A stretch of DNA of 50,750 nucleotides from a virus: positions 1-50,750 of the IMG/VR virus record IMGVR_UViG_3300025898_000009, one strand, 5' to 3'. Within the stretch, counting starts at the first letter, position 1. Every line of letters begins with the position of its first letter. The notes under the pieces are model-generated. The model was not told where the DNA came from. It did not search any database and was given only the letters and a program-made list of their open reading frames with translations. Both the position numbers and the translations under genes were made by a program. This document shows positions 3,986 through 27,282 of the stretch, piece by piece.

Positions 3986-6025
3986 CTACGGGAAAGAAGT
4001 ATCCTTTAAATAAATCAATGCACTAAATGCAGCAATACTCACCGGATTTGAAAATGGGCTTGATTGGCAATCTGAATAACCTGCGGGGACGTTAAACGAT
4101 TCCACAGTCAAAGCAGGATTCATTTCAATATTACATTCATGAATAGCATTAGTTGAATTTGAGTATGATATGTAGTTTGATCTACTTGTACTAGAGGCAT
4201 CCGTACTATATTGTGCTTGCCATTGCGCAAATGTTTTAGAAACAGAACCTACAGTAGCGATTGTTGAGCTATACGGATTTACATACTGATTATTATCAGA
4301 GCTTCCACCAGAAGCAAAAGGGGTGCCAGTACTTACAACAAAAACACAATTTCCATTCGGGGAAACTGCGTTAACAATTCTATTGAATTTCATGATGCAA
4401 CCAACTGTATTAGTTACAAAAAAATGGACTACGCCTTTAAATACAGTGTTTGGGGCGCTAATAAGGTTATTCCCTGTGATCGTGTGATTTTTACCACATA
4501 GAATTAATACAGCAGTGCCAGAGTAATTTGCTATACTGTTATTCAAAACATTTTGGTAAACATCATCTGTTATAGCCGGGCCATCAATATATATCCCAGC
4601 ATTTTTTTTTCCTCCTGCAACACCAGGGGCATTATAAATTACATTATTTGAAAATGTTCCATTAGTGTTCGTTGGCGAGAATACTAAGCCGTTTCCAAAA
4701 TTGTGTATTGCACCATTATCAGTCCAATAGGTTCCATAATCATGTATATAATTACTATCAACGAAAGGCCCAGTGCAACATGATGTTTGTATTCCATCAT
4801 TTGAGGTGTGATGTATTGTATTGTATTGCAATTTTGGTAACCAACAAAAAAACAGTACTATTCCTTGGCCTGTTGTTGCCGCTCCCTGTGTTATAAAATT
4901 GCTAAATCCAATATCAGGCCATCCGGGATAATTAGTATAATCTTTTCTTGCACGACTTAATCCATAATCAACAAAACTCAATGTGTTATTTGTTACCATT
5001 GTATTTATGTTGCCAAAGAAAAACATTCCGTTGCCGTCCATATTGTAAATAGTATTACCATTTACATAAAGATCATGAGCATTGGTGGCAAATACAGCAT
5101 GATTCCTACAATCATGAATAGTACAACTAGTAATCGATGAACTTCTCGATTGCGAAGCATCTAAAGTATTTAATTGATAATTAGAAAGGTCTACATTACT
5201 TATGGTGAGTTTTTTATATGTAGAAAACAACCCGTTATAAATCCCTTGCCTTATATTCATAGTTGTAGGGCTAACAGAAGTTTTTATATAAAGACGTTGT
5301 GCGGAGGCATCATAAAACCAATCATTAGTAGATGTCATCCACTGCTTTTGCTGGTATAAATAAAATTGGTTTGTGATGTTAGCAGCTGCCGATGTAATAG
5401 TTGATCCGACTGTGATTGTCCCAGCAGAGTATCCTGTTACTGTATATTCAACACTGCCAGTCCAATCTTGTTCAGTGCATCTTAATTTTGCACCAATTAA
5501 AGACTGTGTACTATTCCAGCCATCAAGCGTGGCCTGTAATCCAGATATTGTAGATCCACTTGTTCCTGTTACTGTTACTGGAGCACTCTCGGCATTTCTT
5601 GCAGATAAACCGTTTATATAAATCCAAAGAGGTGAAGTAGCCAATGAAGTGTAATAAGTTCCATCACCATTGTTTACCCATGTCGCGGTAGATAAATCAG
5701 AACTCCCAATTAATTTAGGTTGTGATCCTGTTCCATAGGAGCTTACTTGAATTGACCCAATTGAAATGATTATGTCACCTAAAACAAATGAATCTCCTTT
5801 ATTAAAAAGAAAAACGTCATTTTCATTAAGCGTTAATGAACCTATTTTATTAATTGTAATCGGGTGCGATGCATCTAGCCCACTATTAGAATCATTTCCA
5901 CTGGCTGAGAAAAAATAAGTAGTATTATTCATAAAAACACCGCCAAACTTATTTTTTATAACGCCTTGAGAGAAAGAGTTATAAACTAAAAAAATTAATA
6001 GTAGTAATGTTGTCAGGTTTCTCAT
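3986..6025 (-). CDS. Secreted right-handed beta-helix protein, likely tailspike or receptor-binding depolymerase
   Basis: 679 residues. Residues 1-20 are a clear signal peptide (Leu-rich core, then SFSQG). The mature start, FSASGNDSNSGLDASHP, is the typical opening of pectate-lyase-like parallel beta-helix enzymes. Residues about 270-560 contain many Asn-rich coils such as NNTLSF, YNTIHH, SNYIHD and NNVIYN, i.e. NosD/pectate-lyase-type helix turns. Such folds bind or cut polysaccharides in tailspikes. It is the last gene of the tail operon and the third of three signal-peptide-bearing proteins in a row. Whether it is a virion part or a truly secreted enzyme is open. No active site is obvious to me. 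Confidence 0.8.
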   Translation of the reverse strand: MRNLTTLLLLIFLVYNSFSQGVIKNKFGGVFMNNTTYFFSASGNDSNSGLDASHPITINKIGSLTLNENDVFLFNKGDSFVLGDIIISIGSIQVSSYGTGSQPKLIGSSDLSTATWVNNGDGTYYTSLATSPLWIYINGLSARNAESAPVTVTGTSGSTISGLQATLDGWNSTQSLIGAKLRCTEQDWTGSVEYTVTGYSAGTITVGSTITSAAANITNQFYLYQQKQWMTSTNDWFYDASAQRLYIKTSVSPTTMNIRQGIYNGLFSTYKKLTISNVDLSNYQLNTLDASQSRSSSITSCTIHDCRNHAVFATNAHDLYVNGNTIYNMDGNGMFFFGNINTMVTNNTLSFVDYGLSRARKDYTNYPGWPDIGFSNFITQGAATTGQGIVLFFCWLPKLQYNTIHHTSNDGIQTSCCTGPFVDSNYIHDYGTYWTDNGAIHNFGNGLVFSPTNTNGTFSNNVIYNAPGVAGGKKNAGIYIDGPAITDDVYQNVLNNSIANYSGTAVLILCGKNHTITGNNLISAPNTVFKGVVHFFVTNTVGCIMKFNRIVNAVSPNGNCVFVVSTGTPFASGGSSDNNQYVNPYSSTIATVGSVSKTFAQWQAQYSTDASSTSRSNYISYSNSTNAIHECNIEMNPALTVESFNVPAGYSDCQSSPFSNPVSIAAFSALIYLKDTSFP

Positions 6026-6027
6026 AA

Positions 6028-7479
6028 CTAAAATATTTCTCTAATTGTAAACCCAGAATTAACTTTAAAAGTACCATTATTTGAACTTGCAGCATGGGTT
6101 CCATAAAACTCTAGGTAATCACCCGTATTCAAATCAAAATCATAGTTAATCCATGCAGTACTGGAAGCACTAGTGGCCCCATTTGATGATTCTGTAGATT
6201 GATGAGGAATCACAACTACCCCATTTATATATATAGCACAGGCATTTCTTGCTGAAGTACCAGGATTTAAGAACCAGACATTACCAACTACTCTATATCT
6301 ACCCGTCCTAGCAATTGTAATTTTTTGATTAACCGTACTAGCTAATGATCCGTAATTATCATAAATCAATGTATTTGTAGCTACTTTAGTAAGAGTTGAT
6401 GTAGGTATTGAAGTTTGATCAGCATTGGAGTATAATCCAGCAGACATTGGTATTCTTTTTACATAATTAAAATTCCAATTAGATCCATCTGAAATTATAA
6501 CGCATGATTCTTTAGCCCAAAAAAGTTGGGTTAAACTACCATCAATTGTTTCTGAACCATTTGGGTCTAGTGTAATCAATGATGAAACACTATTGGTAAA
6601 CTGAAAATAAATTAACCCTCCAGTATTACCTACCGCTGTCGGAAGGGTGATTGTATAACCGCCACCCGATACAAAAATCATTTGTCCAAAGTTTGAGGTT
6701 GTTAGAGTAGTCGCTCCTGAGACAGTAGTATTTGTAACACTACCCATTGTACTAGCGACGTATGAAGTAACGTATTCAGTAGTAGCTATTTTTTTCGAGT
6801 TATCCGTAACACTTTGTGTTGTTGCAGTCATTCCGTTAGCCAAAGCGCCTGCAACTATTGAAGAAGCTGGCAATCCAGTTGCATTTGTAAGAGTTCCACT
6901 TGATGGTGTTCCCAAAGCGCCACCATTAACAACAGGAGCGCCAGCACTTCCAACGTTTACTCCTAAAGCTGTTTGAACTCCAGTTCCAGGTGTTAAAGTA
7001 GCAAGCGGTCCTAAACCTGATACATCGCTACTTGAAATAGCTAATGTAGTTTTAACTTGAGAAGGCGTTCTGCTTGCCCATGCACTTCCAACACTGACAA
7101 TAAAATTATTTGTAGTAGGCGTAAGTCCAGCAATTGTTGTAAGATTTGGGTTTAATGGCTGCGCATCAGTAATACCATATCCTGATAATGTAGTTGGGAT
7201 TCCGGTTAATGAAGAGAATGCAAGTGAACTAATCGTGGCGAATGACCCAAGCCCTAAATTCGTCCTGGCTGCCGATGCGCTGTTCAGATCCGAAAGATCA
7301 TTCTTAACTCCTAGGAATGACAAATAAGTCGAATCATTCAGTTTACCGAGTTTTAACGATGAAACAGCGCCACAACATTTTATATCTCGGGTATTGATTG
7401 CACCGAGTTGATCTTTTCGAAGTTGTGCAAATGAAGCAATGCTCAAGCACATCAATCCGATTAAAATTATTTTTTTCAT
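6028..7479 (-). CDS. Tail-fibre-like protein with signal peptide and C-terminal C1q-like head
   Basis: 483 residues from the ATG at 7477-7479, chosen because it overlaps the upstream stop as ATGA and begins a perfect signal peptide (MKKIILIGLMCLSIASFAQ). An earlier in-frame ATG at 7503 would add eight residues and bury the signal. The middle has fibre repeats such as LSGYGITDA and a Gly/Thr/Ser/Ala-rich shaft; a KKIATTEYV motif typical of tail fibres follows. The last 140 residues (TGRYRVVGNVWF, NTGDYLEFYG) resemble a C1q/TNF-like jelly roll, a trimeric receptor-binding fold. Likely host recognition; the secretion signal is unexplained. Confidence 0.8.
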   Translation of the reverse strand: MKKIILIGLMCLSIASFAQLRKDQLGAINTRDIKCCGAVSSLKLGKLNDSTYLSFLGVKNDLSDLNSASAARTNLGLGSFATISSLAFSSLTGIPTTLSGYGITDAQPLNPNLTTIAGLTPTTNNFIVSVGSAWASRTPSQVKTTLAISSSDVSGLGPLATLTPGTGVQTALGVNVGSAGAPVVNGGALGTPSSGTLTNATGLPASSIVAGALANGMTATTQSVTDNSKKIATTEYVTSYVASTMGSVTNTTVSGATTLTTSNFGQMIFVSGGGYTITLPTAVGNTGGLIYFQFTNSVSSLITLDPNGSETIDGSLTQLFWAKESCVIISDGSNWNFNYVKRIPMSAGLYSNADQTSIPTSTLTKVATNTLIYDNYGSLASTVNQKITIARTGRYRVVGNVWFLNPGTSARNACAIYINGVVVIPHQSTESSNGATSASSTAWINYDFDLNTGDYLEFYGTHAASSNNGTFKVNSGFTIREIF

Positions 7480-7853
7480 ACAACTGGATAGGTTAAACTC
7501 CATTTATCTTTATCTGTTAATAGTGGGCCAGGATTATCAACCTTGGCGCGAATGTGCGCATAAGGCAGAATTACATTACCGTCTGGCGCAAAAAGTGTAG
7601 TGCTTGAAAAATTACCGTTATCCCAACAATATCCCTTCAAAACAGTAGCATCGCCATTGTTTGGCACTTCATTCGTTGATGCATCCCAAACTCCTTGAGG
7701 TGTTGGGACTCCATCTAAACGTGATACTTTACTATCTGTAAGCTGATCTATGTTGGCAGAAACATTTACGCGTGTCACGCTAGACTCTGTAGAGGGAGTG
7801 CGGATATTGGCATTAGTTGCCGCCTTTATCGTTGCATCGTCTGTTACTGCCAT
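7476..7853 (-). CDS. Small tail-locus protein, unknown function
   Basis: 125 residues with no signal peptide. It lies between two signal-peptide-bearing fibre proteins and overlaps the next start by 4 bp. The C-terminal half (GNFSSTTLFAPDGNVILPYAH) is beta-rich. Position suggests a virion component such as a fibre adaptor; no family recognised. Confidence 0.65.
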   Translation of the reverse strand: MAVTDDATIKAATNANIRTPSTESSVTRVNVSANIDQLTDSKVSRLDGVPTPQGVWDASTNEVPNNGDATVLKGYCWDNGNFSSTTLFAPDGNVILPYAHIRAKVDNPGPLLTDKDKWSLTYPVV

Positions 7854-7868
7854 GATTATTTACAATTT

Positions 7869-8945
7869 TTAATTTGTAGAGTAATTAAAACCTGTTAAGG
7901 CTATGATATCACCATTTGATAAAGCACCGCTAACGCCGCCAATAACTAGTTTACCAGTTGAATCTATTATCACTGTGCACGTATTATTACTACCCGCCGC
8001 AAGAGTATAAAACTTCATAGAACCATTAGCACTAGATGCGTTAGGGAATACACCTGTACTAGTGACCTGTGATAGACCACCTCCATAAGTAACTGTCCCA
8101 GATAAAAACACTTGGCCGTTACCATCTATACGGTATCGAAGTGTGTTACCGCTCCAAGAGTTTACAAAAGAAGAAACTGACTGCCAGTTTTGATTTGCAA
8201 TTGTAATCGTACCATTAGAATTAAATCTAAATTTTTCAACGTTATTAATTTTAACTATTACATCCGTAGGAATATTACCAGTAGATACAGACCCATTTAC
8301 TACCGCAACGATATCCGCCGCATTAAAAAATGTTGTTCCGTCATCACCGAAAAATGAAACATCTCCTAAACCGTCACCATTTTGAACAGCCGTATGTCCT
8401 GTTATTGATGTATTTCTATTAGCACCAAGTACAAGAGCTGGTGCTGTTGTTGTGTTAGCGTACTTTAATATAGATGCTACAGGAGAAGTACCAAAAACCT
8501 CAAATGTTGCGCCCCCAATAAAAGTGCTAGTACCTAAACCTAAATTACCAGAAGATGTATTATATATACCTGTGCCAACAACATTTGTACCGTCCGATTT
8601 CACCATTTCATTGTTTGCTCCAGAATTTGTAATCCCTCCGCCGGCGCCTGCCTTCCATGTCCCATCGCCACACCAAAATGTCGATGAACTTGCTCCTGTT
8701 CCTGAATTAAGGTGACTCACGGATAAATTCCCGCTTACATTTGAACCCAATGGGATTAGATCGCCAGAAGTAAGATTAAAATCACTAAGAATAATTTTTT
8801 TCAAAATTCTATTAAAGTATTTAGCATTGTTTTGGTGTGCGCTATTTGTTAGCAGTGAATCGGCCTGAGTATTCAATACCGTTCGATTCGATTGAGATAA
8901 TCCTATGAAAGGGGTTAGAAGCAAAGCAAAAATTAATTTTTTCAT
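7869..8945 (-). CDS. Tail-fibre-like protein with signal peptide
   Basis: 358 residues from ATG at 8943-8945, which overlaps the upstream stop as ATGA and starts a signal peptide (MKKLIFALLLTPFIGLSQ). The longer reading from 8984 would overlap the previous gene and is less likely. After the signal comes a fibre-type section with a TFWCGDGTW motif (the GDGTW element seen in phage fibres), Gly-rich and Ser/Thr/Asn-rich shaft sequence, and a beta-rich C-terminus. It is co-transcribed with the other receptor-locus genes. Confidence 0.75.
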   Translation of the reverse strand: MKKLIFALLLTPFIGLSQSNRTVLNTQADSLLTNSAHQNNAKYFNRILKKIILSDFNLTSGDLIPLGSNVSGNLSVSHLNSGTGASSSTFWCGDGTWKAGAGGGITNSGANNEMVKSDGTNVVGTGIYNTSSGNLGLGTSTFIGGATFEVFGTSPVASILKYANTTTAPALVLGANRNTSITGHTAVQNGDGLGDVSFFGDDGTTFFNAADIVAVVNGSVSTGNIPTDVIVKINNVEKFRFNSNGTITIANQNWQSVSSFVNSWSGNTLRYRIDGNGQVFLSGTVTYGGGLSQVTSTGVFPNASSANGSMKFYTLAAGSNNTCTVIIDSTGKLVIGGVSGALSNGDIIALTGFNYSTN

Positions 8946-10303
8946 ATAATGTTTCTTAAATTGTTGTCCTTCTGAGTTAACCAAATGTCTGCACTTTGTT
9001 CAGCGAAGCGAATATCACCACTAGGCTGATTTCTGTTAAATGCTTCTTGCTGTGAACTCCATTCAACTCCATCAATTACCAGGGAACCTTTAATTGAGTG
9101 TTTTAATGCCATTTGAATCTTATTCAAGATATACATTGGCAAGTTAGTAAATTGAAGCCATTTTTGAAATTTCTGATAGGTGGCTGTATCTATGGCTTCG
9201 GAGGTTAGATCTATCGAACTTGATAGCTCCGATATTCTTTCTAAAAAAAACTTGCATGGCACCCGCAAAGCGAAATAGTTTTCGTCAGTCGGATAGTTCA
9301 ATCCTGCATAATTCTTTTGACTCTTAAAGTAAAGTAGCTGACTACCGTTATTATTATCGACGGCTACCTCTTTAGCGAATGAGTGAAAATCTGATTTGTA
9401 TTTATTATCAGCGTCACTTATTACGTCCAACGTAATGTCCAGCGTTTCCTCATCAAGCGTACCGCCATTAGACTCGTTTATAAAGAACTGAACTAGTTGG
9501 CCGCATAATGGAGTAGATATATCATTGCCCGTAAAGTTAAAATCATAGGCTGCAAATGTTTCGCTTGATGGCGCTGTTGTCAGTGTCGCGGAATTTATCT
9601 CGATTATTGCAACGTTCCCGGGGGCGCCTATTGAGAATCCGAAACCTAATTCAAGCCAATAATCAGCTAATGTAAAGCTGATAGAGAAATCCATAGCGCC
9701 GAATGCCTGATTTGCGGACGAAACTAATAATGGCGATAGAGTTACGAACCCGTCGTCACTTGCAAACATTGAGCAAAATAATTGATCGCGTTGCGTTCCT
9801 GTAGAGTGATTATTGCCAATGAATCTTATTGTATAATCACCAGGAGGCCACCCGAAAGAATAACCATCAGGACGAAGAACTTTGAGGTAATAACTATCTC
9901 TGAAGTTATCCCCGTGCAAGCTTCCGTCCGATTTGATCACTCCATTTGAAATCCATGCCCATGTTTCTTGAAAGCTGCCGTTTCCGTGTTGTGTCCAAGG
10001 GGCTAATGTTGCTATGAAAGTTGAGTTCGGAAACGATAGTGATACCGCCGAGCCTGAAACGAGTGATTTTGTCGGTTTAATGAAATCGATCATAGATCCG
10101 TTACGATCCTTCATTATCATTACATAATCCTTACTTATATCAGGAATATTGCTGACTTGATGCTTTATCGGATCATCGCATTGCCATTGATGTATATACG
10201 GTTTGGGGTTTACGAAGCCGAATGATTCTTCCGCCATCCGTTCATTATATGTCTTATCGTTGATCGACCAGAATTCAATTGGATTGGCTTTTGATATGGG
10301 CAT
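8942..10303 (-). CDS. Tail/baseplate protein, unknown family
   Basis: 453 residues, beta-rich, without a signal peptide. It is between the large 914-residue baseplate-type protein and the fibre genes, the usual place for distal tail or upper-fibre components. The C-terminal block VIDGVEWSSQQEAFNRNQ and the sequence SADIWLTQKDNNLRNII look conserved-domain-like, but I cannot name them. Confidence 0.7.
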   Translation of the reverse strand: MPISKANPIEFWSINDKTYNERMAEESFGFVNPKPYIHQWQCDDPIKHQVSNIPDISKDYVMIMKDRNGSMIDFIKPTKSLVSGSAVSLSFPNSTFIATLAPWTQHGNGSFQETWAWISNGVIKSDGSLHGDNFRDSYYLKVLRPDGYSFGWPPGDYTIRFIGNNHSTGTQRDQLFCSMFASDDGFVTLSPLLVSSANQAFGAMDFSISFTLADYWLELGFGFSIGAPGNVAIIEINSATLTTAPSSETFAAYDFNFTGNDISTPLCGQLVQFFINESNGGTLDEETLDITLDVISDADNKYKSDFHSFAKEVAVDNNNGSQLLYFKSQKNYAGLNYPTDENYFALRVPCKFFLERISELSSSIDLTSEAIDTATYQKFQKWLQFTNLPMYILNKIQMALKHSIKGSLVIDGVEWSSQQEAFNRNQPSGDIRFAEQSADIWLTQKDNNLRNII

Positions 10304-10318
10304 GAGAACAAAAGTAAT

Positions 10319-13063
10319 TTATTCGAACTCGTCTTCAAAATAAGGCTCTTCGAAGTAATGTCCTGAATGAGGGGGTGTAGGCGAGCCAGACACTTCCGTA
10401 ACATAAGCATAAGTATCAGGAACGATAATATCCATATGTTCTTTTGCCTTGAATGTGGCTTTGAATAGTCCTGTTGAAGCCTGTAATTCGAAAGATTTAA
10501 CAAACATTTTTTTATGCCCTGATTTAGTCATACTGATGCCCACTGAACGATTCTTTAATAGCACCATTGTTTCATATTCCTGCAAGGATATGTAATGCTG
10601 AATGTCATACAGTTCATCCAAATGTAAAAATTCATTTGAAGGAGCGATATCACCTTTCTCGTTGACTACGTTGCCATTATCGTCACCTGGACATGATGTT
10701 GACATTTCGGATTGCATATTAAAGTTGCCTTCCGCAGATCCGAATTGAAATACCGATGAAAGATATTTTTGCATAGGGATTGAATATACATTTAGCCACC
10801 GAATAAAGTTTCTGGCCGGCGTGATGGCTGAATTGTACCGCGTTTCTGGATTTAGTAATCCTGTGATTGAAGAAAAGTTTTCGTTAGTGGCAGGACGGAA
10901 AGTGCCGTCACCATTAGAATGGAGTATGATGACGAACATATCATCATCATACGTGTAATTCGATGATTCTTTATTGCCAGTTCTCACAGTCGTTTCAATG
11001 GTCAGACTAGCTGCAATCCACGAACTTAAATTCTGAAATGTTTTCCCTATTTTTTTAAAGAATGAGTTTCTGGTTTGACTAGTCTGCGCATCATCTATCC
11101 CCGAAGGTATTCCTATGCCAGTAGAGTCTTGCGATTGCCATTTCTGATAACCCTGTTGGATGCTCCTGTATTGTACATTAGGATCGTAATAACGGCGAAT
11201 AGTCCAGACGTTTGAAATCAAAATACTGAATCCGGAATCATCAAAGAAGTGATCCACTTCCTCAACTCTAAATCTCATCACACCATCAACCAATTCATAA
11301 CCCATTCCTAAGTTATCTATGGGATTAATCCCTTTGAACCAATCTTGTAGGCTTGAGAATACTGGTTTATCAGCGAGTAAATAACCGCGCAAATGCAATC
11401 CTTTCATGTTGGCTTTTAGTGACCCACAACCGGCATCACCATAAACTCGCTTGGTCCATTGGTTTCCTAAATAATCTGAATAAAAAAGATCGGATTGCCC
11501 AGCGATGCGATCAAGTATACCATAACCCACATCATGAGTTAAGAATGCGTCAGTATTGGTTAGATCACGCGTTGTATTGAATTCAATATTGAAAGCGTTG
11601 TCTGCCCCGTAAGCCTCCAATCCTTCGAAGGGAGTTAAATCAGTGATATGCCAATCAGTTAAAGTATCGGCAGGATTGTCCACCCTGGCTTGCATTACTT
11701 GGCCCTTTGTAATCGCTATTGTTCCACCTACGACATGCCCGTCTGTACCAGCAACAAACCATTGTCTTTGCTTAATTGCTAATCCTGTACCTCCTTCATC
11801 ATCAATAGTAATAGGGAAACTCCCAACCGGATCAAACAATCCTCCATAAGCAAAATCCCCCTGATTAGAATCGTCATGAATAGAACTAGAACCTCTATAT
11901 TTTTGATAACTACCTTTACACCCGGCCATCTGTTCATATCCAGAATCATGACTCCACCCGTCAGTACCCCATATATAATAACGCCCGTTTCTATCTTTAT
12001 AAGGAAAAGTGAACTCATCATTATAGATTCCGAATAATTTTATCGCATCATATTTATTCACCAACAATTCAGTATCGGCAGGTAGTTCGTAGTCGGTGAC
12101 AAACGGATTGAATGTTCCGACATACAAGTCTTCTAAAAACCCATCATTACTCACATAATTTGCAACTGCTCTATATGATTTGTTTAATTTTATTGGCGTT
12201 CCTACATTTTGCTGAATATAGAAGTCAATGTTTGTCATCTTTGTAAACTTACCATTCTTTGCCCTCATGAAATCAGCACTTGCTGCATAATTAGGATCGT
12301 CTTGCTGCATGCCAGACATTGTGAATTTAAGCTTTTTTATAATGAAATCGCCGTCATCTATAGGGTTGAAGTACGGTACGATCTGATTATAGCTTTTAGG
12401 GTCTGTCGCGTCCGCCCGGCTTCCATCTGCGCCGGTCGTGATCGTGAATGTAATCGCAGATTGCTCAGTGATCTCCTTTAAGGATTCAGTGTCGAATCCT
12501 ATTAAAAAAATATCGTTAGTGATATCAAATACTTGAAATGAGGTGTTATACTTTAAATAGGCTTCATATTTCTTAATCAATTTTTGAGCGGGCAATGGCA
12601 AAGTAAAGCTTGGGGCAGGATCAACTGGATTTCCGTCTATGTCGGTAACGGATTTTAAATCAACTTGAGAATCGTAACGATTAATGATTCGCGTCCAGAA
12701 ATCATTCTGAGTGAACGTGCATTCGACCATGTGGTCTTGATCGAGAGTTTCAATCAATAGACCGATAGCTTGTTGACCGGTGAATATCGTTACGAAATGA
12801 CCGTCGTCATATTCATCGATTTCGACTTTAACATCAACCTCAGCATCAGCACCATAAATCTTTTCGATGTTCAAAATCCAATCACGACCACCATCCTGAT
12901 CGCCATTGCTTCCATAAAAGCCCATTGATCCCTTGAAGTACTCGACTAAGGAATTAAAATCAGGGTGACGCTCTAATCCGATAGTGCATTTATCCCAACC
13001 GGAAGGTTCGGAGGCAATGAAGCTACCTTCGATTGCGTGCGAATATGTGAATCGCCAAGTCAT
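10319..13063 (-). CDS. Large baseplate/distal tail protein
   Basis: 914 residues, the second largest protein, directly after the tape measure gene (4-bp overlap). This is where siphoviruses encode distal-tail and tail-associated (Dit/Tal or hub) proteins. The sequence is beta-rich with many aromatic residues and no recognised enzyme motif. Its last residues, GHYFEEPYFEDEFE, are almost repeated at the C-terminus of the 219-residue protein at 21622-22281, suggesting a shared docking tail. The identity as hub or Tal is from position and size. Confidence 0.7.
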   Translation of the reverse strand: MTWRFTYSHAIEGSFIASEPSGWDKCTIGLERHPDFNSLVEYFKGSMGFYGSNGDQDGGRDWILNIEKIYGADAEVDVKVEIDEYDDGHFVTIFTGQQAIGLLIETLDQDHMVECTFTQNDFWTRIINRYDSQVDLKSVTDIDGNPVDPAPSFTLPLPAQKLIKKYEAYLKYNTSFQVFDITNDIFLIGFDTESLKEITEQSAITFTITTGADGSRADATDPKSYNQIVPYFNPIDDGDFIIKKLKFTMSGMQQDDPNYAASADFMRAKNGKFTKMTNIDFYIQQNVGTPIKLNKSYRAVANYVSNDGFLEDLYVGTFNPFVTDYELPADTELLVNKYDAIKLFGIYNDEFTFPYKDRNGRYYIWGTDGWSHDSGYEQMAGCKGSYQKYRGSSSIHDDSNQGDFAYGGLFDPVGSFPITIDDEGGTGLAIKQRQWFVAGTDGHVVGGTIAITKGQVMQARVDNPADTLTDWHITDLTPFEGLEAYGADNAFNIEFNTTRDLTNTDAFLTHDVGYGILDRIAGQSDLFYSDYLGNQWTKRVYGDAGCGSLKANMKGLHLRGYLLADKPVFSSLQDWFKGINPIDNLGMGYELVDGVMRFRVEEVDHFFDDSGFSILISNVWTIRRYYDPNVQYRSIQQGYQKWQSQDSTGIGIPSGIDDAQTSQTRNSFFKKIGKTFQNLSSWIAASLTIETTVRTGNKESSNYTYDDDMFVIILHSNGDGTFRPATNENFSSITGLLNPETRYNSAITPARNFIRWLNVYSIPMQKYLSSVFQFGSAEGNFNMQSEMSTSCPGDDNGNVVNEKGDIAPSNEFLHLDELYDIQHYISLQEYETMVLLKNRSVGISMTKSGHKKMFVKSFELQASTGLFKATFKAKEHMDIIVPDTYAYVTEVSGSPTPPHSGHYFEEPYFEDEFE

Positions 13064-16000
13064 TTATCGAGCCATGCGCCCATAGAAAGCGCTCTTTGGC
13101 GTTTAGCATAATCCTCACGTTCTTTGATAGTCATGTACACCATTGCGCCAACCTTTGCGTAATTGACCTCTTTAGGTTTATTCTTCTTTACGGAATCATC
13201 AATAGCTGAAAGTCTTTGTACAACTTCCTGATTCATTGCTTTGGTTGACTGAAACTCTCTTATTCCGATGTCTACCAATTGATGACTGATCAAATCCATG
13301 TGTTTCGTGTCCATCTTTTTGAGAATAGGGTCAGAAACTTCATTTGGTAAAATCTTAGTCCCTTCTTTTAGATAGCGCAATTGTGGCTTATCATAAATCT
13401 CCAATTTACCAGAACGCTCAATGCCTATTTCAGCGCCCTTCTCGGCCACAGTTGCCCATCCTTCTTCTGAATAATGAGTACCCTTGAAATAGGCTGGTAT
13501 TTTCTGGGATAATACAACAGCTTCCTCAGCTGCGCCTATTGCGGTAATCAGTTCTATTATAGGTGCCGTTAATGGTAGTCCTGGCAACTGTTCAGCGATA
13601 GCTTGCGCAGTTTTAACAAGAATCTGCCCAGCCGCAACTTCTTTATCGAAAATAGCCTTACGTCTCTGTTCTTTGGCTATTTGATCCTGAGCTTTCTTTT
13701 GCTGAGCTGCATATTGTTTTTCTATTGCCGCTTTCGCCTGCGCATTATCGCCTGCTAGCGCTAATTCAGTGTCGTGACGTTCGGACAGATCAGATAGATA
13801 CTTGTTGTAAGAGTCTATTTGGTACTGAAATCCATTATCGACTATTTGCCCAACCGATGTTACAATTTGTTGCTCTAATTGAATTGTTAGCGTGTGCGTT
13901 TGCGCTGCAATTTGTTTTTGAAAAGCAATTTGATTTTCCGAAATCTGCTTTTTCTTTTCCGAAACCTGCTTGTCGATTTCTATAATATCCTGCGCATGCC
14001 TCTTCTCTAATTCTTCGTCTTGCTTGAACGCAAACTTTTTTTCTTGAAGAATTTCTATTTCATTCTGTAGAGTATCGTTCTTTGCTTCTAGTTCTAGCTT
14101 CGCCTTTTGAATATTGTAATTCTTGAGCGATATTAATCCGAACCTGAACTGATCATTAAGCGCCTCGATCGCTTTATTATTTCCGGTTGATGTCTGGTTA
14201 CCTTGCGCTTGTAATTCTTTAACCTTAGTGTCTATTGTCAATTGAACAAGGTCGCGCGCATTCTTTTTGCGTAGCTCGAGAATAGCAGTATCATTCGCTT
14301 GCTCAATGCGTTGCTCCTGCAAAGCGAACTGATTATCAGAATCTAATATTTTATTCTTAGCGTTAAGGATTAATTCAGCCCGAAGCTTGATGTCGTCACC
14401 AGCTTGCTTGCGTATTTGATCGCTAGTGTCTTTGTCGAGATGTATTTTATCTTGAGCTGAAAGCCGCAAAGCCCTGAGCTCATCAGCTTCCTTTTTCCCA
14501 ATCAATTGCTCTTCTAGTTCGCCATTGTTTTTAAATGCCTCCAATTTTTCTTCAAGAGATGAAGATTGATTCGATATTATTCTGTTATTGGCTTGCTTGT
14601 TCGATTCGATGATAGCAACATTTAATTCGTCTCTTGTGGTTTGCTCTTGCTTGGCAGCTTCGCGAATCACATCAATCTGCTCTTTGATTAACTCAACTTC
14701 GGAAGCCTGAATACGTCTAGTTCCCTCGAATTCACTTTTCTTAGCATCAGTGAGTTTGGCACGGGCCTCAGCTAATTCTTTGACCTGATCATAAGACTTC
14801 TTTTGCAACACAGTCTCATTTTGCAGTAAGTCTTTTATTTTCAGCTCAGCCACATTAGCAATACCGAGCTTTTTGAAGTATGCCTCTTGAATATTTACTT
14901 CTAGTTGCGCATCCTGGATTTTCAGTTGCGCTTCTTCTCTCCTTGCAACATTAGCCTTTACAAGTGCGTCATATCTCTGTTGTAGCGAATTGGATTCTTT
15001 CTCACGCACGGTAAATAACTCCTTTTGTTTTTCAAGTTCTAATTCAGCGCCTTCCTCAATAAGAATCATTTCTTCTTTACGAAGTTCATTTTGCATTTCT
15101 ATAATTTCGGTGTTAGCCTTAAGTCTTTTTTGATAATCTCCCTGCGATTGAATCCATTTCTCAAACACCAAAAGCAAAGGAGAGAATGAAAATAATATTT
15201 TATCCAAATTCTTACTATCGGTTATGTAGTCGAATGTTGCTTTGCCGAGAGATTTCATTTTTGATTGAACTATCTCTAATGCAGTAGTCCACTGAGCACT
15301 GAATTCTTTCGCTCGATCGGCACCTTCAATAGTCCCTTCTGTATATAAATTGACTGATTTACGCAAAAGTTCGAATGCTGCAACTATAGCCGCTATTCCT
15401 AGAACTACAGGATTAGTTATGAGCGTTAATAGTTGTGCCCCCATCTTTTTAAGAGATTCAGTGCTTTCAATTGCGGTCGGTGATATTTTGCTCAATGCTG
15501 GCAATGCCTCCTCAATAGCCTTCTTATATCCTCCAACTTCACGCTGAGCATTGCCCAGAACTAGATCAAACTCTTTCAGTTTATTATTGCCATCAGTCAC
15601 GAACTTTTGTAAATCCTTGAATTGTTGTGAAGTGCTGCCAATGCCTCCTTCCATCGATTTAAGTTGCTTCGTGGCGTTGGCTACTTTCACCGCAAGATCG
15701 TTATAAGATCCAGCCGCTAAATCAGTAGCTTTCTTTGCGTCAGTTACAATCTTTTGCCCGGCTTGGACTTGTGCGTTGAGGTCAGTAATACGTTTTAGCG
15801 CGTCAGCTTTTACCGATGAATCAACAGCCGCACCCATCTTGGTGTATGCATCAGTCGCATCCTTTAACTTATCTTTCAGGTCCTTCAATGATCCTAACTG
15901 AGCATCGCTACCAGGTCCTTTATCTTTTGATGACTGATTGAGCTTGTCAATCTGATCTTGCAGCATTTTAATCTGATCAGTCAATGATGTGAGTGACTTT

Positions 16001-16293
16001 TTATAAGCCTCATTTTGCTGAACCGCTTGCGCTGTCACCTGAGCGCCGTTGTTGATTGTGTCTTGGCCTTTCTTGGTAGCCACATCAGCTTGAGTTATTT
16101 CTTGCTCTAATGCATCTACGGACTTTTGTATTGCCTGCATGGAGGCGGTGTAACCAGCAGCAGTCTTTTGGGCAGATTGCAACATTGCATCCAAAACAGT
16201 ATTAAGTTGTTGGGTTTTGGCTATAACCTGATCTAACGGCGTGGTGTCGTCGAAATCAAATATTTTCTTAATGTCAATCGGATTATCTGCCAT
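13060..16293 (-). CDS. Tail tape measure protein
   Basis: 1077 residues. Most of the length is charged, Gln/Lys/Glu/Ala-rich coiled coil, with one hydrophobic stretch around residue 300 (NPVVLGIAAIVAAFELL) as in tape measures that cross the host membrane. The C-terminal region (GTHYSEEGWATVAEKGAEIGI, then a conserved-looking IYDKPQLRYLKEGTKI) is typical of tape measure ends. Length would set a tail of roughly 150 nm by the usual 0.15 nm per residue rule. It overlaps both neighbours by a few bases. Confidence 0.9.
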   Translation of the reverse strand: MADNPIDIKKIFDFDDTTPLDQVIAKTQQLNTVLDAMLQSAQKTAAGYTASMQAIQKSVDALEQEITQADVATKKGQDTINNGAQVTAQAVQQNEAYKKSLTSLTDQIKMLQDQIDKLNQSSKDKGPGSDAQLGSLKDLKDKLKDATDAYTKMGAAVDSSVKADALKRITDLNAQVQAGQKIVTDAKKATDLAAGSYNDLAVKVANATKQLKSMEGGIGSTSQQFKDLQKFVTDGNNKLKEFDLVLGNAQREVGGYKKAIEEALPALSKISPTAIESTESLKKMGAQLLTLITNPVVLGIAAIVAAFELLRKSVNLYTEGTIEGADRAKEFSAQWTTALEIVQSKMKSLGKATFDYITDSKNLDKILFSFSPLLLVFEKWIQSQGDYQKRLKANTEIIEMQNELRKEEMILIEEGAELELEKQKELFTVREKESNSLQQRYDALVKANVARREEAQLKIQDAQLEVNIQEAYFKKLGIANVAELKIKDLLQNETVLQKKSYDQVKELAEARAKLTDAKKSEFEGTRRIQASEVELIKEQIDVIREAAKQEQTTRDELNVAIIESNKQANNRIISNQSSSLEEKLEAFKNNGELEEQLIGKKEADELRALRLSAQDKIHLDKDTSDQIRKQAGDDIKLRAELILNAKNKILDSDNQFALQEQRIEQANDTAILELRKKNARDLVQLTIDTKVKELQAQGNQTSTGNNKAIEALNDQFRFGLISLKNYNIQKAKLELEAKNDTLQNEIEILQEKKFAFKQDEELEKRHAQDIIEIDKQVSEKKKQISENQIAFQKQIAAQTHTLTIQLEQQIVTSVGQIVDNGFQYQIDSYNKYLSDLSERHDTELALAGDNAQAKAAIEKQYAAQQKKAQDQIAKEQRRKAIFDKEVAAGQILVKTAQAIAEQLPGLPLTAPIIELITAIGAAEEAVVLSQKIPAYFKGTHYSEEGWATVAEKGAEIGIERSGKLEIYDKPQLRYLKEGTKILPNEVSDPILKKMDTKHMDLISHQLVDIGIREFQSTKAMNQEVVQRLSAIDDSVKKNKPKEVNYAKVGAMVYMTIKEREDYAKRQRALSMGAWLDK

Positions 16294-23253: not shown

Positions 23254-24582
23254 TTAAATTGTTGACCAATCACTTCCGAACTTCTTATCGCAAGGCAAGC
23301 ATGCATCATTCAAATCAGATGTATCGAAAGAAAGCGCTTTAATGCTCTTCTCTAACTGTGATGAAACGCCGGGAGTATAGTTGTCTTTGTTATTGAGTGC
23401 ATACATCGCCAGATCGCGAGTCTGTTTTGAAATTGTGTTGTTACGTACTGAGTTCGAAATCATCAACAAAACATCTTTCGCTACTTGCTTTAAAAGCGGA
23501 TCTGAGAACAGATATCGTTCACGACAGAGGAAATCTGTAACATCGCATTTAACCGTTAAATCCAGGTTAAGTCCAAAATTCTTAGTGTATTGATAACCAT
23601 TCATGCGGATATCCCAAAGCAATCCTTTGCCCCCTGCCGCAACTATATCCGCTTGCTGAACTACGAAAGGTTGCACTTGAATCCATTCGCTCCATGAACT
23701 CCAATATCGATAATCATTGTTGCAAGTGGTGCAATATGGTGCGGTAGCGAAATCATATCCTTTATTAATAGCTTGAGCGCCTGGGATAAGATCGTCCTCA
23801 TAATAACCAATGTAGAATGATCCTCCGGGCGAATAGTCATCAGACAGATATTTTAACTGAATCTCGCTAGTGCCGTCTTTGATGTTGGTCCATTCGAAAG
23901 AGTTGGCTTTAGTCAAAGTCAAGTCAATCGTGAAAATAGGCTCCTGTTGCGATGAATGGAAAATATAAAGCGTCGGCAAGGCATTAGCCATTGAGAATTG
24001 GGTGCCTAATCGCTTAATAACTGTGATTACATCACGATTATATTTTAAGAAAATCTCAAATCCCACAAATCTTGAGGACTTGATTTCTTTGTTTAGCAAA
24101 GAACCTGCCCCATCGAACAACTGAACGTTTTCGAAGATCGATTTTGTGACTTCATTCAATTTTTTTTCGGTGAATACTCTCGATAATAGCTTTGAAGCTC
24201 CTGCATTGGTTATTGCTGCGATCTTTTGAGCGAGTAAGTTTACCTCTGTCCACCAAAGAGGGCTTACATCAGGAGCGTTTCCGGTATTGCCCGCTTGAAT
24301 TGATTCGTAGACCTTATTATCGGTGAATCGGACCCAATCAGCCGGACCGGTTGCGACGCCGTAAGTTATGCCTATTTGGAAAGCATTGAAATTGAACTGA
24401 TCGTAATTGAAATCTGCCTGATCGATGTTTTGAATGGATATCAAAGGGTGTTCATCCTGAAAATAAAGGCCGCTTTCGCTTGCCGTGAGGCTTGGTGGCA
24501 GCGTTGGGTAATCGGGGTTATTGTTTTGCCTCCATCCGACTAGACCGGCTATACAGGCTTGGAAATCCTTTTCTCGGTACAT
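23254..24582 (-). CDS. First gene of the tail operon, large virion-type protein
   Basis: 442 residues, mixed, with a CTTCNNDYRYW pair and other Cys (CDVTDFLCRERY, CLPCDKK) that might form disulfides or bind metal. It is the first gene downstream of the perfect palindromic operator at 24617, with a 35-bp leader. Head-completion or tail protein is likely from position, but I do not recognise the family. Confidence 0.65.
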   Translation of the reverse strand: MYREKDFQACIAGLVGWRQNNNPDYPTLPPSLTASESGLYFQDEHPLISIQNIDQADFNYDQFNFNAFQIGITYGVATGPADWVRFTDNKVYESIQAGNTGNAPDVSPLWWTEVNLLAQKIAAITNAGASKLLSRVFTEKKLNEVTKSIFENVQLFDGAGSLLNKEIKSSRFVGFEIFLKYNRDVITVIKRLGTQFSMANALPTLYIFHSSQQEPIFTIDLTLTKANSFEWTNIKDGTSEIQLKYLSDDYSPGGSFYIGYYEDDLIPGAQAINKGYDFATAPYCTTCNNDYRYWSSWSEWIQVQPFVVQQADIVAAGGKGLLWDIRMNGYQYTKNFGLNLDLTVKCDVTDFLCRERYLFSDPLLKQVAKDVLLMISNSVRNNTISKQTRDLAMYALNNKDNYTPGVSSQLEKSIKALSFDTSDLNDACLPCDKKFGSDWSTI

Positions 24583-24616
24583 TCTGTAAATGTAGAAAAT
24601 ATTTTAGGAAAAACTT

Positions 24617-24640
24617 GTATATCGGAAATTTCCGATATAC
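24617..24640. promoter_or_regulatory. Perfect palindromic operator between tail operon and rightward genes
   Basis: A 24-bp perfect palindrome centred between 24628 and 24629, containing the full 20-bp consensus ATATCGGAAATTTCCGATAT. It separates the leftward tail operon (start 24582) from rightward genes (start 24694). On the plus side TACATTTA (24638-24645) is a one-off match to TAnnTTTG; no clear box is visible leftward. The best operator thus sits at the weakest visible promoter. Confidence 0.75.
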
Positions 24641-24693
24641 ATTTACATCATGGTTGGCGCGGTTGCTGGCCGGAAATTAAAAAACGATCAAAA

Positions 24694-24954
24694 ATGGGAA
24701 TTTTAAATGTGGATTTTTTCAATCAGTTCGAATGCAGAAGAAAGTTGACTCTTTATTCTAGATCGAACATTACAATTACTCAAGCGATTCAGGATTTAAA
24801 TTTAGCAATTGCTAGCTACGCTCTTAGCGATAGGAACAATCCTACAAAACTTAAAAATCTTATTGATTGTCGTGACTGGCTTAAGGTTGTTCAGCCAACG
24901 GAACAAGATGTCGAACAATGGTTAACTACAACTAAAATCTTAGCGGTTTCTTGA
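24694..24954 (+). CDS. Small helical protein, unknown function
   Basis: 86 residues from the ATG at 24694; the open frame extends upstream to 24559 but that part lies over the operator and the opposite gene's start. The sequence is Asn/Asp-rich and helical (AIQDLNLAIASYALSD). First of a rightward run of seven genes inserted between head and tail operons. Confidence 0.6.
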   Translation: MGILNVDFFNQFECRRKLTLYSRSNITITQAIQDLNLAIASYALSDRNNPTKLKNLIDCRDWLKVVQPTEQDVEQWLTTTKILAVS

Positions 24955-24964
24955 TCGTTCCGTC

Positions 24965-24993
24965 AGGCGCGGGGACTGCGATAGTGCCTTTTT
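24965..24993 (+). terminator. Attenuator-like hairpin
   Basis: AGGCGC (24965-24970) can pair with GTGCCT (24984-24989), one G-T wobble, followed by five T. It is in the gap between the first and second rightward genes. The stem is short, so partial termination is more likely than a full stop. Confidence 0.4.
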
Positions 24994-25006
24994 AAACCCA
25001 AATAAT

Positions 25007-25180
25007 ATGCAACGAGTAAGAATTATTCATCCGCACGATATTTATAAAGGAAAAATCGGTTATGTCGTCGAGCGCATAGATCAGCATTCGCTTTGCACTT
25101 ACGTGGTTATGTTCATCGGTAAAAATATCAAGAGAGCCTACCAAAGAAACGAAATTAAATTCCTTAAAACCCCAATCTAA
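25007..25180 (+). CDS. 57-residue SH3/KOW-like small protein
   Basis: The frame MQRVRIIHPHDIYKGKIGYV... has the pattern of a small beta-barrel of the SH3/KOW type (KGKIGYVV then an alternating strand CTYVVMFIGKN). It starts 7 bp after a TTTAAACCC motif and ends one base before the next ATG. It is basic, so nucleic-acid binding is possible, but this is inference. Confidence 0.55.
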   Translation: MQRVRIIHPHDIYKGKIGYVVERIDQHSLCTYVVMFIGKNIKRAYQRNEIKFLKTPI

Positions 25181-25181
25181 T

Positions 25182-25637
25182 ATGACCCCAATCCCCTCAA
25201 CAATCGACTTAACAGGGAAACTTCCTGTTGTCCTTTACACATCAGAAGGCGAAGCATTACCCACTGAATTGCCTTACACGATATTCGAAGCCAACGAGCC
25301 TACGGTTGAAGTGGACTGCTCACAAGTGAAAGATTCATGGGAATCAGGCATGGTTGACGATGTGGTCATGGCTCTCAATAAGTTCCTCGGTACTGATGAT
25401 TATGACATTGAAATAATCGGCACTGAAAAGATTCTACCCTTAATGATTCGTGTTGAGCGTGATTCTGTAGGCTGGTTTGTTCAGCCTTTGAAGACACTTG
25501 CATTGGATGATCCGTTCGGCGTTGGGGACACTATACAACAGGCTATCGATGCTTTCATCCGCGCATGGGAGAATAAAGGCCTACCTTCGATAAGGAATAA
25601 TTATAAGTGGGTTGGTAAAGAATCAATGTGGGGCTAG
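25182..25637 (+). CDS. Soluble protein, unknown function
   Basis: 151 residues, acidic, mixed alpha/beta, rich in Asp and Glu, with a C-terminal helical part (TIQQAIDAFIRAWENKGL). It is closely followed by the 50-residue gene (TAG directly before ATG). No family recognised. Confidence 0.65.
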   Translation: MTPIPSTIDLTGKLPVVLYTSEGEALPTELPYTIFEANEPTVEVDCSQVKDSWESGMVDDVVMALNKFLGTDDYDIEIIGTEKILPLMIRVERDSVGWFVQPLKTLALDDPFGVGDTIQQAIDAFIRAWENKGLPSIRNNYKWVGKESMWG

Positions 25638-25790
25638 ATGATTCACTCCGCTAAAATATTCATCCCTAAACGCAACGGTGTAAAAGTGCTGGATTGCAAG
25701 ACAATGATTTGGTATTTTTATTCTAACAATTGGTTTGAAATGAAAGAAGTGTTTAACAATAAAGTGGTGAGATATGGTACTAAGGGGTGA
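25638..25790 (+). CDS. 50-residue aromatic peptide
   Basis: The frame MIHSAKIFIPKRNGVKVLDC... begins on the base after the upstream stop and overlaps the next start by 17 bp. It is aromatic and basic (MIWYFYSNNWFEMK). The abutment supports it as a gene; function unknown. Confidence 0.5.
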   Translation: MIHSAKIFIPKRNGVKVLDCKTMIWYFYSNNWFEMKEVFNNKVVRYGTKG

Positions 25791-26049
25791 TTTAGTAAGC
25801 CGAGCCTATATTGACCATTGCGAATCTTTTGCTAAAAAGATTTTTGCGCCTGCTGATATTACTATAGTCCAGGTTAATGCAATATTTACAGTCATTGTAT
25901 CTCTTCATAATGGATTTTATAAGTACACATTTCAATCTGAATTGTTTGAGAATTACGCATCTGTTGATACTCTTGAAGCAACTCTAAAGCGTCATAGAAA
26001 AGTATTCATTTCAAATGTCATATCACTACTAAAGCAATCTATCAAATGA
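25774..26049 (+). CDS. Small protein, unknown function
   Basis: 91 residues, mixed alpha/beta, ending in a helix (FISNVISLLKQSIK). Overlaps both neighbours (17 bp upstream; 4 bp ATGA downstream). No motif recognised. Confidence 0.6.
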   Translation: MVLRGDLVSRAYIDHCESFAKKIFAPADITIVQVNAIFTVIVSLHNGFYKYTFQSELFENYASVDTLEATLKRHRKVFISNVISLLKQSIK

Positions 26050-26411
26050 CCCTCAAACTTAACGAACTCCGCATCGGCAACTGGATCCAATTCATGGACG
26101 AGCAGCCGCAACAATTAACGACTTACACGCTTGCATCGCTTTGTCAGAATCCAGTGGCGTTGGAGTTTTATAGGCCGATTCCGATAATGAGAACGGGGCT
26201 TAATTTAATGCTCAATCTTAAATTTGTAGATGAGTCTTGGTTCCAGCACGGATTTAATTTCACGGTTAGAAAAAAGAATCATTGGTTCATAGTGGATAGT
26301 GGTAATATGCTAAGGAGGGTGGACTATCTACACGAAATTCAGAATATTTTTTTCGCTATTTACGCAACAGAAGTCCACGAATACAGTAACGAACCATTCA
26401 ACATATTATGA
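26046..26411 (+). CDS. Conserved Bacteroidetes small protein (ELRIGNW...YLHEIQN type)
   Basis: 121 residues starting LKLNELRIGNWIQF and ending VDYLHEIQNIFFAIYATEV. These two blocks, IGNW near the start and YLHxxQNxxFA at the end, are typical of a small protein family widespread in Bacteroidetes phages and mobile elements, of unknown role. It supports the host assignment. Confidence 0.65.
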   Translation: MTLKLNELRIGNWIQFMDEQPQQLTTYTLASLCQNPVALEFYRPIPIMRTGLNLMLNLKFVDESWFQHGFNFTVRKKNHWFIVDSGNMLRRVDYLHEIQNIFFAIYATEVHEYSNEPFNIL

Positions 26412-27046
26412 AACTCATTCACTACCTCAAATCCAACACCTTCGCAGTCATCATTTCTATTCTTTCGATGATCGTGCAATCCTTTCACAGCTTCACTGCT
26501 TTTCACGATCTGAGCTCACTCAAAGGAACAGGATGGGGCATAGCTCAGGCGGTTTTATTTGCTATTGTTGTGGATTTCGCGATTCTGTTCTACACAGTCC
26601 GCAAGAACATAAAAGTAGCTTGGATGGCAGGCTTTGCGATGTTCCTGATCAACGGCTATTACTACTATTCGCATTGGGGATTAACCTGGCAATTGATCCC
26701 AGGGCTGTTCTTGTCTTTGATTATCCCGGTATCGAATTATTTTTATTCTGAGGAGATTACGGAGGATTCGGACACTGGATTAGACGGTACGATTGCTCAA
26801 ATGAGCAATCAGTTGCGAATTCAGCAAAATGCTTTTAAACGCGTTTCGGATGAACTTGCACTTGCTAGACAAATGCTTGATGAACGTGAAGTTGGTAAAT
26901 ATGAAGAAGCTCTTGATGGCACTAAACTCAAGGTGCAAGAACCTCATCCCAAAGGCTTTGCGCAACTCAAATCCGAATCTCAGAAGTCACCTGAAGATAA
27001 GTCTTTGGTGAATATTATTTCAACCGATAGACCTGTGCGGCCATGA
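26408..27046 (+). CDS. Four-helix membrane protein with cytoplasmic coiled coil
   Basis: 212 residues. Hydrophobic helices cover residues 12-30, 45-64, 69-86 and about 92-112; the rest is a hydrophilic tail with a coiled coil (IAQMSNQLRIQQNAFKRVSDELALARQML) and a disordered C-terminus. It is coupled by ATGA to the previous gene. In phages such proteins are often exclusion or membrane-modifying factors; the true function is unknown. Confidence 0.65.
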   Translation: MKLIHYLKSNTFAVIISILSMIVQSFHSFTAFHDLSSLKGTGWGIAQAVLFAIVVDFAILFYTVRKNIKVAWMAGFAMFLINGYYYYSHWGLTWQLIPGLFLSLIIPVSNYFYSEEITEDSDTGLDGTIAQMSNQLRIQQNAFKRVSDELALARQMLDEREVGKYEEALDGTKLKVQEPHPKGFAQLKSESQKSPEDKSLVNIISTDRPVRP

Positions 27047-27282
27047 AATTCAATTGGATCAAATCGCTTTACGATCGCGCTCATAAATGGTTAACAGAAC
27101 CTTTATGGGAGCCACAAGAACCAATCAAAATCAAGATTTATACACTAGAAGAACAAATTGCTTTTTTGAAACAGGGGCGCGAGATACTTCTAAGCAATCA
27201 GAAGGCTGAAATCACATTAGACCAATCGCATTGCGATATGCTTTTGAATATTGAGGCGAGCTTGCTTACATCGCAGAAATAA
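27043..27282 (+). CDS. Small soluble protein, last of the rightward run
   Basis: 79 residues, Trp/Lys-rich at the start (FNWIKSLYDRAHKWLTEPLWE), helical. Coupled by a 4-bp overlap to the membrane protein and so possibly its partner. It ends on the edge of the terminator stem, converging with the capsid gene. Confidence 0.6.
   Translation: MKFNWIKSLYDRAHKWLTEPLWEPQEPIKIKIYTLEEQIAFLKQGREILLSNQKAEITLDQSHCDMLLNIEASLLTSQK

Follow-up and report, generated by a model that had tools for sequence, protein, structure and literature searches.

Three of the last genes in the tail module of an uncultured phage, here named P1, P2 and P3, encode proteins that look like tail fibres and spikes but begin with Sec signal peptides. 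Assembly of tailed-phage virions is generally held to take place entirely in the cytoplasm. The initial annotation of this DNA called the signals unexpected for virion proteins and attributed them to the proteins themselves, and our analysis agrees on both points. The question is whether such proteins can be exported and still end up on the virion. The window analysed was the whole 50,750-base IMG/VR virus record.

Fibre- and spike-like genes close the tail module

The portal protein encoded in the window had 79 phage matches, essentially all of them to phages of Bacteroidota hosts; judged by these matches, the host group of the window phage is the Bacteroidota. The tail module lies on the minus strand and starts with the tape measure protein (13060..16293; phrog_18891, 3.1e-18), followed by a 914-aa virion structural protein (10319..13063; phrog_15220, 6.6e-52) and a 453-aa signal-less protein (8942..10303) that is ATGA-coupled to P3. 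The latter had no match among phages and is, by position only, a probable tail-tip protein. Next come P3 (7869..8945), a 125-aa signal-less protein (7476..7853) that is ATGA-coupled to P2 and is by position a candidate tail-side adaptor, P2 (6028..7479) and P1 (3986..6025). The starts of P2 and P3 overlap the stop of the preceding gene in an ATGA, while P1 starts 2 nt past the P2 stop. The positions, frames and starts first assigned to the three genes were correct, as was their location at the tail end; the three are not strictly consecutive, however, since the 125-aa gene separates P3 from P2.

P1 to P3 thus lie after the tape measure and tail-tip genes, as expected of tail fibres or spikes, and all three have features of such proteins. 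In P1 (679 aa), a right-handed beta-helix (Pfam Beta_helix, 9.7e-11) begins almost immediately after the signal, in support of the beta-helix spike proposed initially; P1 can be read as a lyase-like spike. P2 (483 aa) contains phage fibre repeats with a GYGITDAQPL motif; its relatives are encoded in 276 viral stretches, and the GYGITDAQ-type repeat is common to fibres of many phages. The C1q head once assigned to P2 found no Pfam match. P3 (358 aa) is a GDGTW-type tail fibre, a reading borne out by its match to phrog_18345 (tail fiber, 2.9e-11). Relatives of P1 were found neither by tblastn against phages nor in a scan of genome contigs, solved structures gave no useful match to P1–P3, and the regions behind their signals showed no conserved docking domain. 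AlphaFold2 models of P1 (from a single sequence) and P2 (from 5 sequences) had a mean pLDDT of 32 and were unusable. Over P1 and as much of P2 as it contains, the nearest viral contig (L010/L090) shows 100% identity, so the window lineage offers no test of selection. Elsewhere in the window, a plus-strand ORF block (24559–27282) interrupts the minus-strand structural module and could be a moron island; the product of 26408–27046 within it has a predicted hydrophobic N-terminus.

The N-termini of P1, P2 and P3 fit Sec signal peptides

Signals were sought with a rule-based predictor requiring a charged n-region, a hydrophobic core of 8–15 residues, small residues at -3 and -1, and Gln at +1; the predicted cleavage of P1–P3 rests on it. 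Only three of the 52 window genes of at least 100 aa passed, and these were exactly P1, P2 and P3. When the same test was applied, as a measure of chance, to 972 internal Met positions from the window and six relatives, a single one passed, and the Sec signals reported initially can therefore be regarded as genuine. The predicted signal peptide of P1 (5969..6025, minus strand) is MRNLTTLLLLIFLVYNSFS, followed by QG; that of P2 (7426..7479, minus strand) is MKKIILIGLMCLSIASFA, followed by QL; and that of P3 (8895..8945, minus strand) is MKKLIFALLLTPFIGLS, followed by QS. They end in SFS, SFA and GLS, respectively, each directly before Gln, in line with the Bacteroidetes Q-rule for signal peptidase I substrates (PMC5837995). 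With n, h and c regions and Gln at +1, the three proteins fit Sec/signal peptidase I substrates of Bacteroidota. The Cys at +1 that would mark a lipoprotein (signal peptidase II) is absent from all three signals, Gln standing there instead, and neither Pfam nor NCBIfam matched a T9SS C-terminal sorting domain in P1–P3. The predicted destination is therefore the periplasm.

Signal-bearing genes recur downstream of tail genes in other Bacteroidota elements

Of the 86 viral fibres with domains in common with P2 or P3, five (L011, L019, L038, L073 and L080) had a plausible N-terminal signal, several of them sitting in runs. Because the 86 had been chosen by shared fibre domains, a fibre-independent survey was performed: the 914-aa protein family (phrog_15220), whose members here are signal-less, was searched as an anchor in Bacteroidota genomes, and the DNA downstream was read. 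At least one Q-rule gene of at least 200 aa was found downstream of the anchor in 10 of 38 elements (L194, L196, L197, L198, L199, L143, L214, L219, L225 and L128). An insertion takes L196 outside the distance rule, so it was counted by eye; L128 stems from the preceding fibre-based search, and the strictly unbiased figure is therefore 9/37. No such gene was found downstream in the other 28 elements, a few of which are truncated at contig ends. The initial annotation had proposed asking whether related phages retain the signals; the layout indeed recurs in these 10 elements, and also in Cellulophaga phages (see below).

In L143 and L225, the run of signal genes is followed by small holin- or spanin-like genes, and the same layout is seen in a Cnuella takakiae prophage (L131, with holin and endolysin matched) and in a Bacteroidetes contig (L110). 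Small signal-less genes resembling that for the 125-aa protein occupy the same position in L019, L080, L110, L113, L128, L129, L197 and phage phi10:1 (gp090). In L196, signal-bearing genes of 1542 and 691 aa flank a 109-aa signal-less gene, which is thus placed like the 125-aa gene of the window. One match, in L200, was not counted, as it lacks Gln at +1 and resembles a membrane anchor. In other elements, such as L142, L212, L213 and L215, ordinary signal-less fibres occupy the slot. Fibres of six Bacteroidota phages scanned (P2559Y, P2559S, PDS1, TCUEAP2, Arctus_1 and B124-14) had no signal, and the trait was also absent from phi18:1. It is thus far from universal among phages of Bacteroidota.

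Some signals directly precede a fibre domain. An HMM seeded only with signal-less fibre N-termini (P2559Y, P2559S, PDS1, TCUEAP2, L212, L213, L215 and L218) was run against 10,193 ORFs. Besides its seeds, it matched L219 (E = 5e-5) and L216 (1e-3), both matches beginning right behind the signal; no other score was below 0.9. The apparent signal of L216 was not counted, since it overlaps the upstream gene by 73 nt and may be a start artefact. The related fibres L216 4536 and L218 4650 have different starts; a signal may have been gained or lost here, or the L216 start may be artefactual. By eye, L214, a seed of a second-round HMM, has the same arrangement of a fibre N-terminus behind a signal; the protein concerned matches a phage EPS depolymerase family (5e-10).

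Signal-bearing proteins of Cellulophaga phages are annotated as virion proteins

Like the window, the cultured Cellulophaga phages phi10:1 and phi19:1 (Assiduviridae) encode, after the tail genes, several successive signal-bearing fibre and lyase proteins with Q-rule sites, and in phi10:1 a small signal-less gene also precedes the series. Whereas the window is known from sequence alone, for these two phages the notes in the sequence records report virion presence from experimental MS/MS virion proteomics. In phi10:1, five Q-rule genes lie in a row (gp091–gp095), and gp091–gp094 together with the preceding gp090 are so annotated; gp095, with a signal and a match to pectate lyase, carries no MS/MS note. 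In phi19:1, gp101–gp104 are all annotated from MS/MS; three of the four (gp101–103) have Q-rule signals, and gp104 has a signal-like start followed by Lys. The source of these notes is presumably Holmfeldt et al. 2013. That work is cited, with its virion proteomics, in PMC11946311. Far from the tail genes, both phages also encode a small Q-rule signal protein (phi10:1, L229 23531–23845; phi19:1, L230 22972–23331).

No sequence similarity was detectable between P1–P3 and the virion proteins of phi10:1 or phi19:1; the link between them is therefore one of layout and signal. From the shared layout, we infer that P1–P3 may likewise be present on the virion of the window phage. The initial annotation had set exported proteins against virion proteins, a contrast that looks false in view of the signal-bearing Cellulophaga proteins annotated by MS/MS.

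In Cellulophaga phages, signal-bearing N-modules have been exchanged among different lyase and fibre C-terminal parts. The lyase of phi10:1 gp093 recurs in phi46:3 gp081 (93% identity), there preceded by another signal module; the module that gp093 itself carries (residues 1–102) is attached to a different protein, gp080. Homologous lyases of podovirus and crAss-like phages have no signal: those of phi17:2 and phi14:2 (44–49% identity) have another N-terminus, which in phi14:2 (g086) is an Mtd_N domain in place of the signal region. The lyase fold therefore needs no export. Homologues lacking the signal region entirely, named initially as a refuting observation, thus exist in one Cellulophaga lyase family, but there a different N-terminus substitutes.

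P1–P3 might instead be exported without ever joining the virion, acting in the periplasm or around the cell in receptor masking, matrix digestion or release, with virion association elsewhere due to incidental sticking. This would accord with signals that are real and host-adapted, with a beta-helix in P1 that starts almost directly past the signal and leaves no obvious docking domain, with the missing MS/MS note for gp095, and with the five Q-rule proteins of unknown function encoded by Porphyromonas gingivalis prophages (PMC10367356). It sits poorly with the MS/MS annotation of four adjacent signal-bearing proteins in each of phi10:1 and phi19:1, with the fibre N-terminal domain directly behind the signal of L219, and with signal modules that move between receptor-binding and lyase ends in the manner of docking modules; nor was any T9SS sorting domain found. 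We consider it unlikely, at about one chance in five, and prefer the reading in which the exported proteins are virion parts.

Predicted cleavage sites appear to follow the rules of the host

In a hand count, Gln occupied +1 in 23 of 24 signal-bearing proteins of Bacteroidota prophages. Verrucomicrobiota prophages have the same layout with mostly non-Gln sites: across loci L098, L113, L115 and L129, whose neighbouring genes are phage-like by inspection, Gln was found at +1 in one of four (Fisher p = 0.005 against Bacteroidota, with small numbers). Since the Verrucomicrobiota sites are mostly non-Gln, the signals appear to follow host rules. Such host dependence of the +1 Gln would be expected if signal peptidase I cuts there, and not for a mere docking helix.

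This bears on a further possibility, that the hydrophobic N-terminus is never exported and docks uncleaved inside the tail tip. The behaviour of the signal and the residues behind it as a single exchangeable N-terminal module, like a docking module, would suit such a helix. A dock, however, has no need of Gln after a small-X-small site, a residue that is nearly universal in the Bacteroidota proteins, mostly absent from those of Verrucomicrobiota, and relevant only if signal peptidase I cuts at it. Moreover, the signals of P1, P2 and P3 are unlike one another in sequence, though a single dock would be common to them. The uncleaved option of the initial annotation is thus disfavoured, and we regard it as improbable.

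Capture from the host was also raised initially; that the genes are recently acquired host surface genes whose signals are vestigial is very improbable. Signal-bearing surface proteins that share the repeats do exist in Bacteroidota (L109 Pedobacter, L100 and L114), but the signal recurs in the same genomic slot across several phage families and two phyla. Moreover, codons 1–21 of the pectate-lyase N-module differ among six Cellulophaga phages by at most 6 synonymous and no nonsynonymous changes, by which measure the signal is kept by purifying selection. What remains of that proposal is that repeats are shared with host proteins, while the signal is maintained and shuffled in phages. Two Pedobacter genes close to each other (L109, 6967–8025 and 8921–12094) have one signal-bearing N-terminus in common and contain phage-fibre repeats, and no obvious prophage surrounds them; they are host surface proteins sharing fibre repeats. 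A protein with a signal (AMA before Gln) and the same repeats is also encoded in an Acidobacteria MAG (L097, 9254–12283).

A proposed route to the virion

The reading preferred here, with a probability of roughly 0.55, is that P1–P3 are the phage's own distal fibres and glycan-active spike, which are exported by Sec, cleaved, held in the periplasm and docked at lysis. They would be synthesised late as pre-proteins and carried out of the cytoplasm by Sec; signal peptidase I would then cleave before the Gln, which the host could cyclise to pyroglutamate, and the mature proteins would wait in the periplasm. When the lysis proteins break the envelope, the periplasmic proteins would meet finished tails and dock, perhaps via signal-less adaptors, for which the 125-aa and 453-aa proteins are candidates. 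Late docking is feasible, since some tail fibres and tailspikes, such as the long tail fibres of T4 and the tailspike of P22, attach to finished particles in vitro. Against this route counts the fact that signal-less homologous lyases function on podovirus and crAss-like virions, so that export is dispensable for the lyase fold. Periplasmic O-glycosylation was considered as a reason for export and rejected, the D-S/T-(ALVIMT) motif being enriched neither in P1–P3 nor in the phi10:1 proteins.

These results suggest that some tailed phages route their spikes through host secretion before attachment. A wider proposal is advanced tentatively, at slightly less than even odds: in a subset of tailed phages infecting Bacteroidota and Verrucomicrobiota, heads and tails would be made in the cytoplasm, while fibres and spikes pass via Sec to the periplasm and the two are joined only at lysis. 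If fibres are exported first, virion assembly gains an extracytoplasmic last step; the host envelope functions Sec, signal peptidase I and glutaminyl cyclase would count as host factors of the phage; and fibres not yet attached could, in addition, affect the envelope ahead of release. The host cleavage rule could serve as a sequence mark for finding host-recognition genes and guessing the hosts of uncultured phages. The idea is testable in existing laboratory isolates.

Relation to known systems

In the literature searched, mostly non-subscription, we found neither a paper describing signal-bearing tail fibres nor any mention of the signals on the fibres of phi10:1 and phi19:1. Target proteins of phage-encoded diversity-generating retroelements are stated to lack signal peptides (PMC6199706). 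Like the window, the Nixviridae prophages of P. gingivalis have phage genes with Q-rule signal peptides, noted in genes of unknown function (PMC10367356). As fibres and spikes, P1–P3 are of a known kind; the variant described here would change the understanding of assembly. They share genome slot, shaft repeats and lyase folds with ordinary tailed-phage fibres and tailspikes, such as L218, the P2559Y terminal fibre and phi14:2 g086 with its Mtd_N domain, but the latter have no signal peptide, and some have a docking domain at or near residue 1. Filamentous phages do have virion proteins with Sec signals, pIII and pVIII, which are processed at the membrane; their virions, however, assemble in the inner membrane, whereas those of tailed phages assemble in the cytoplasm.
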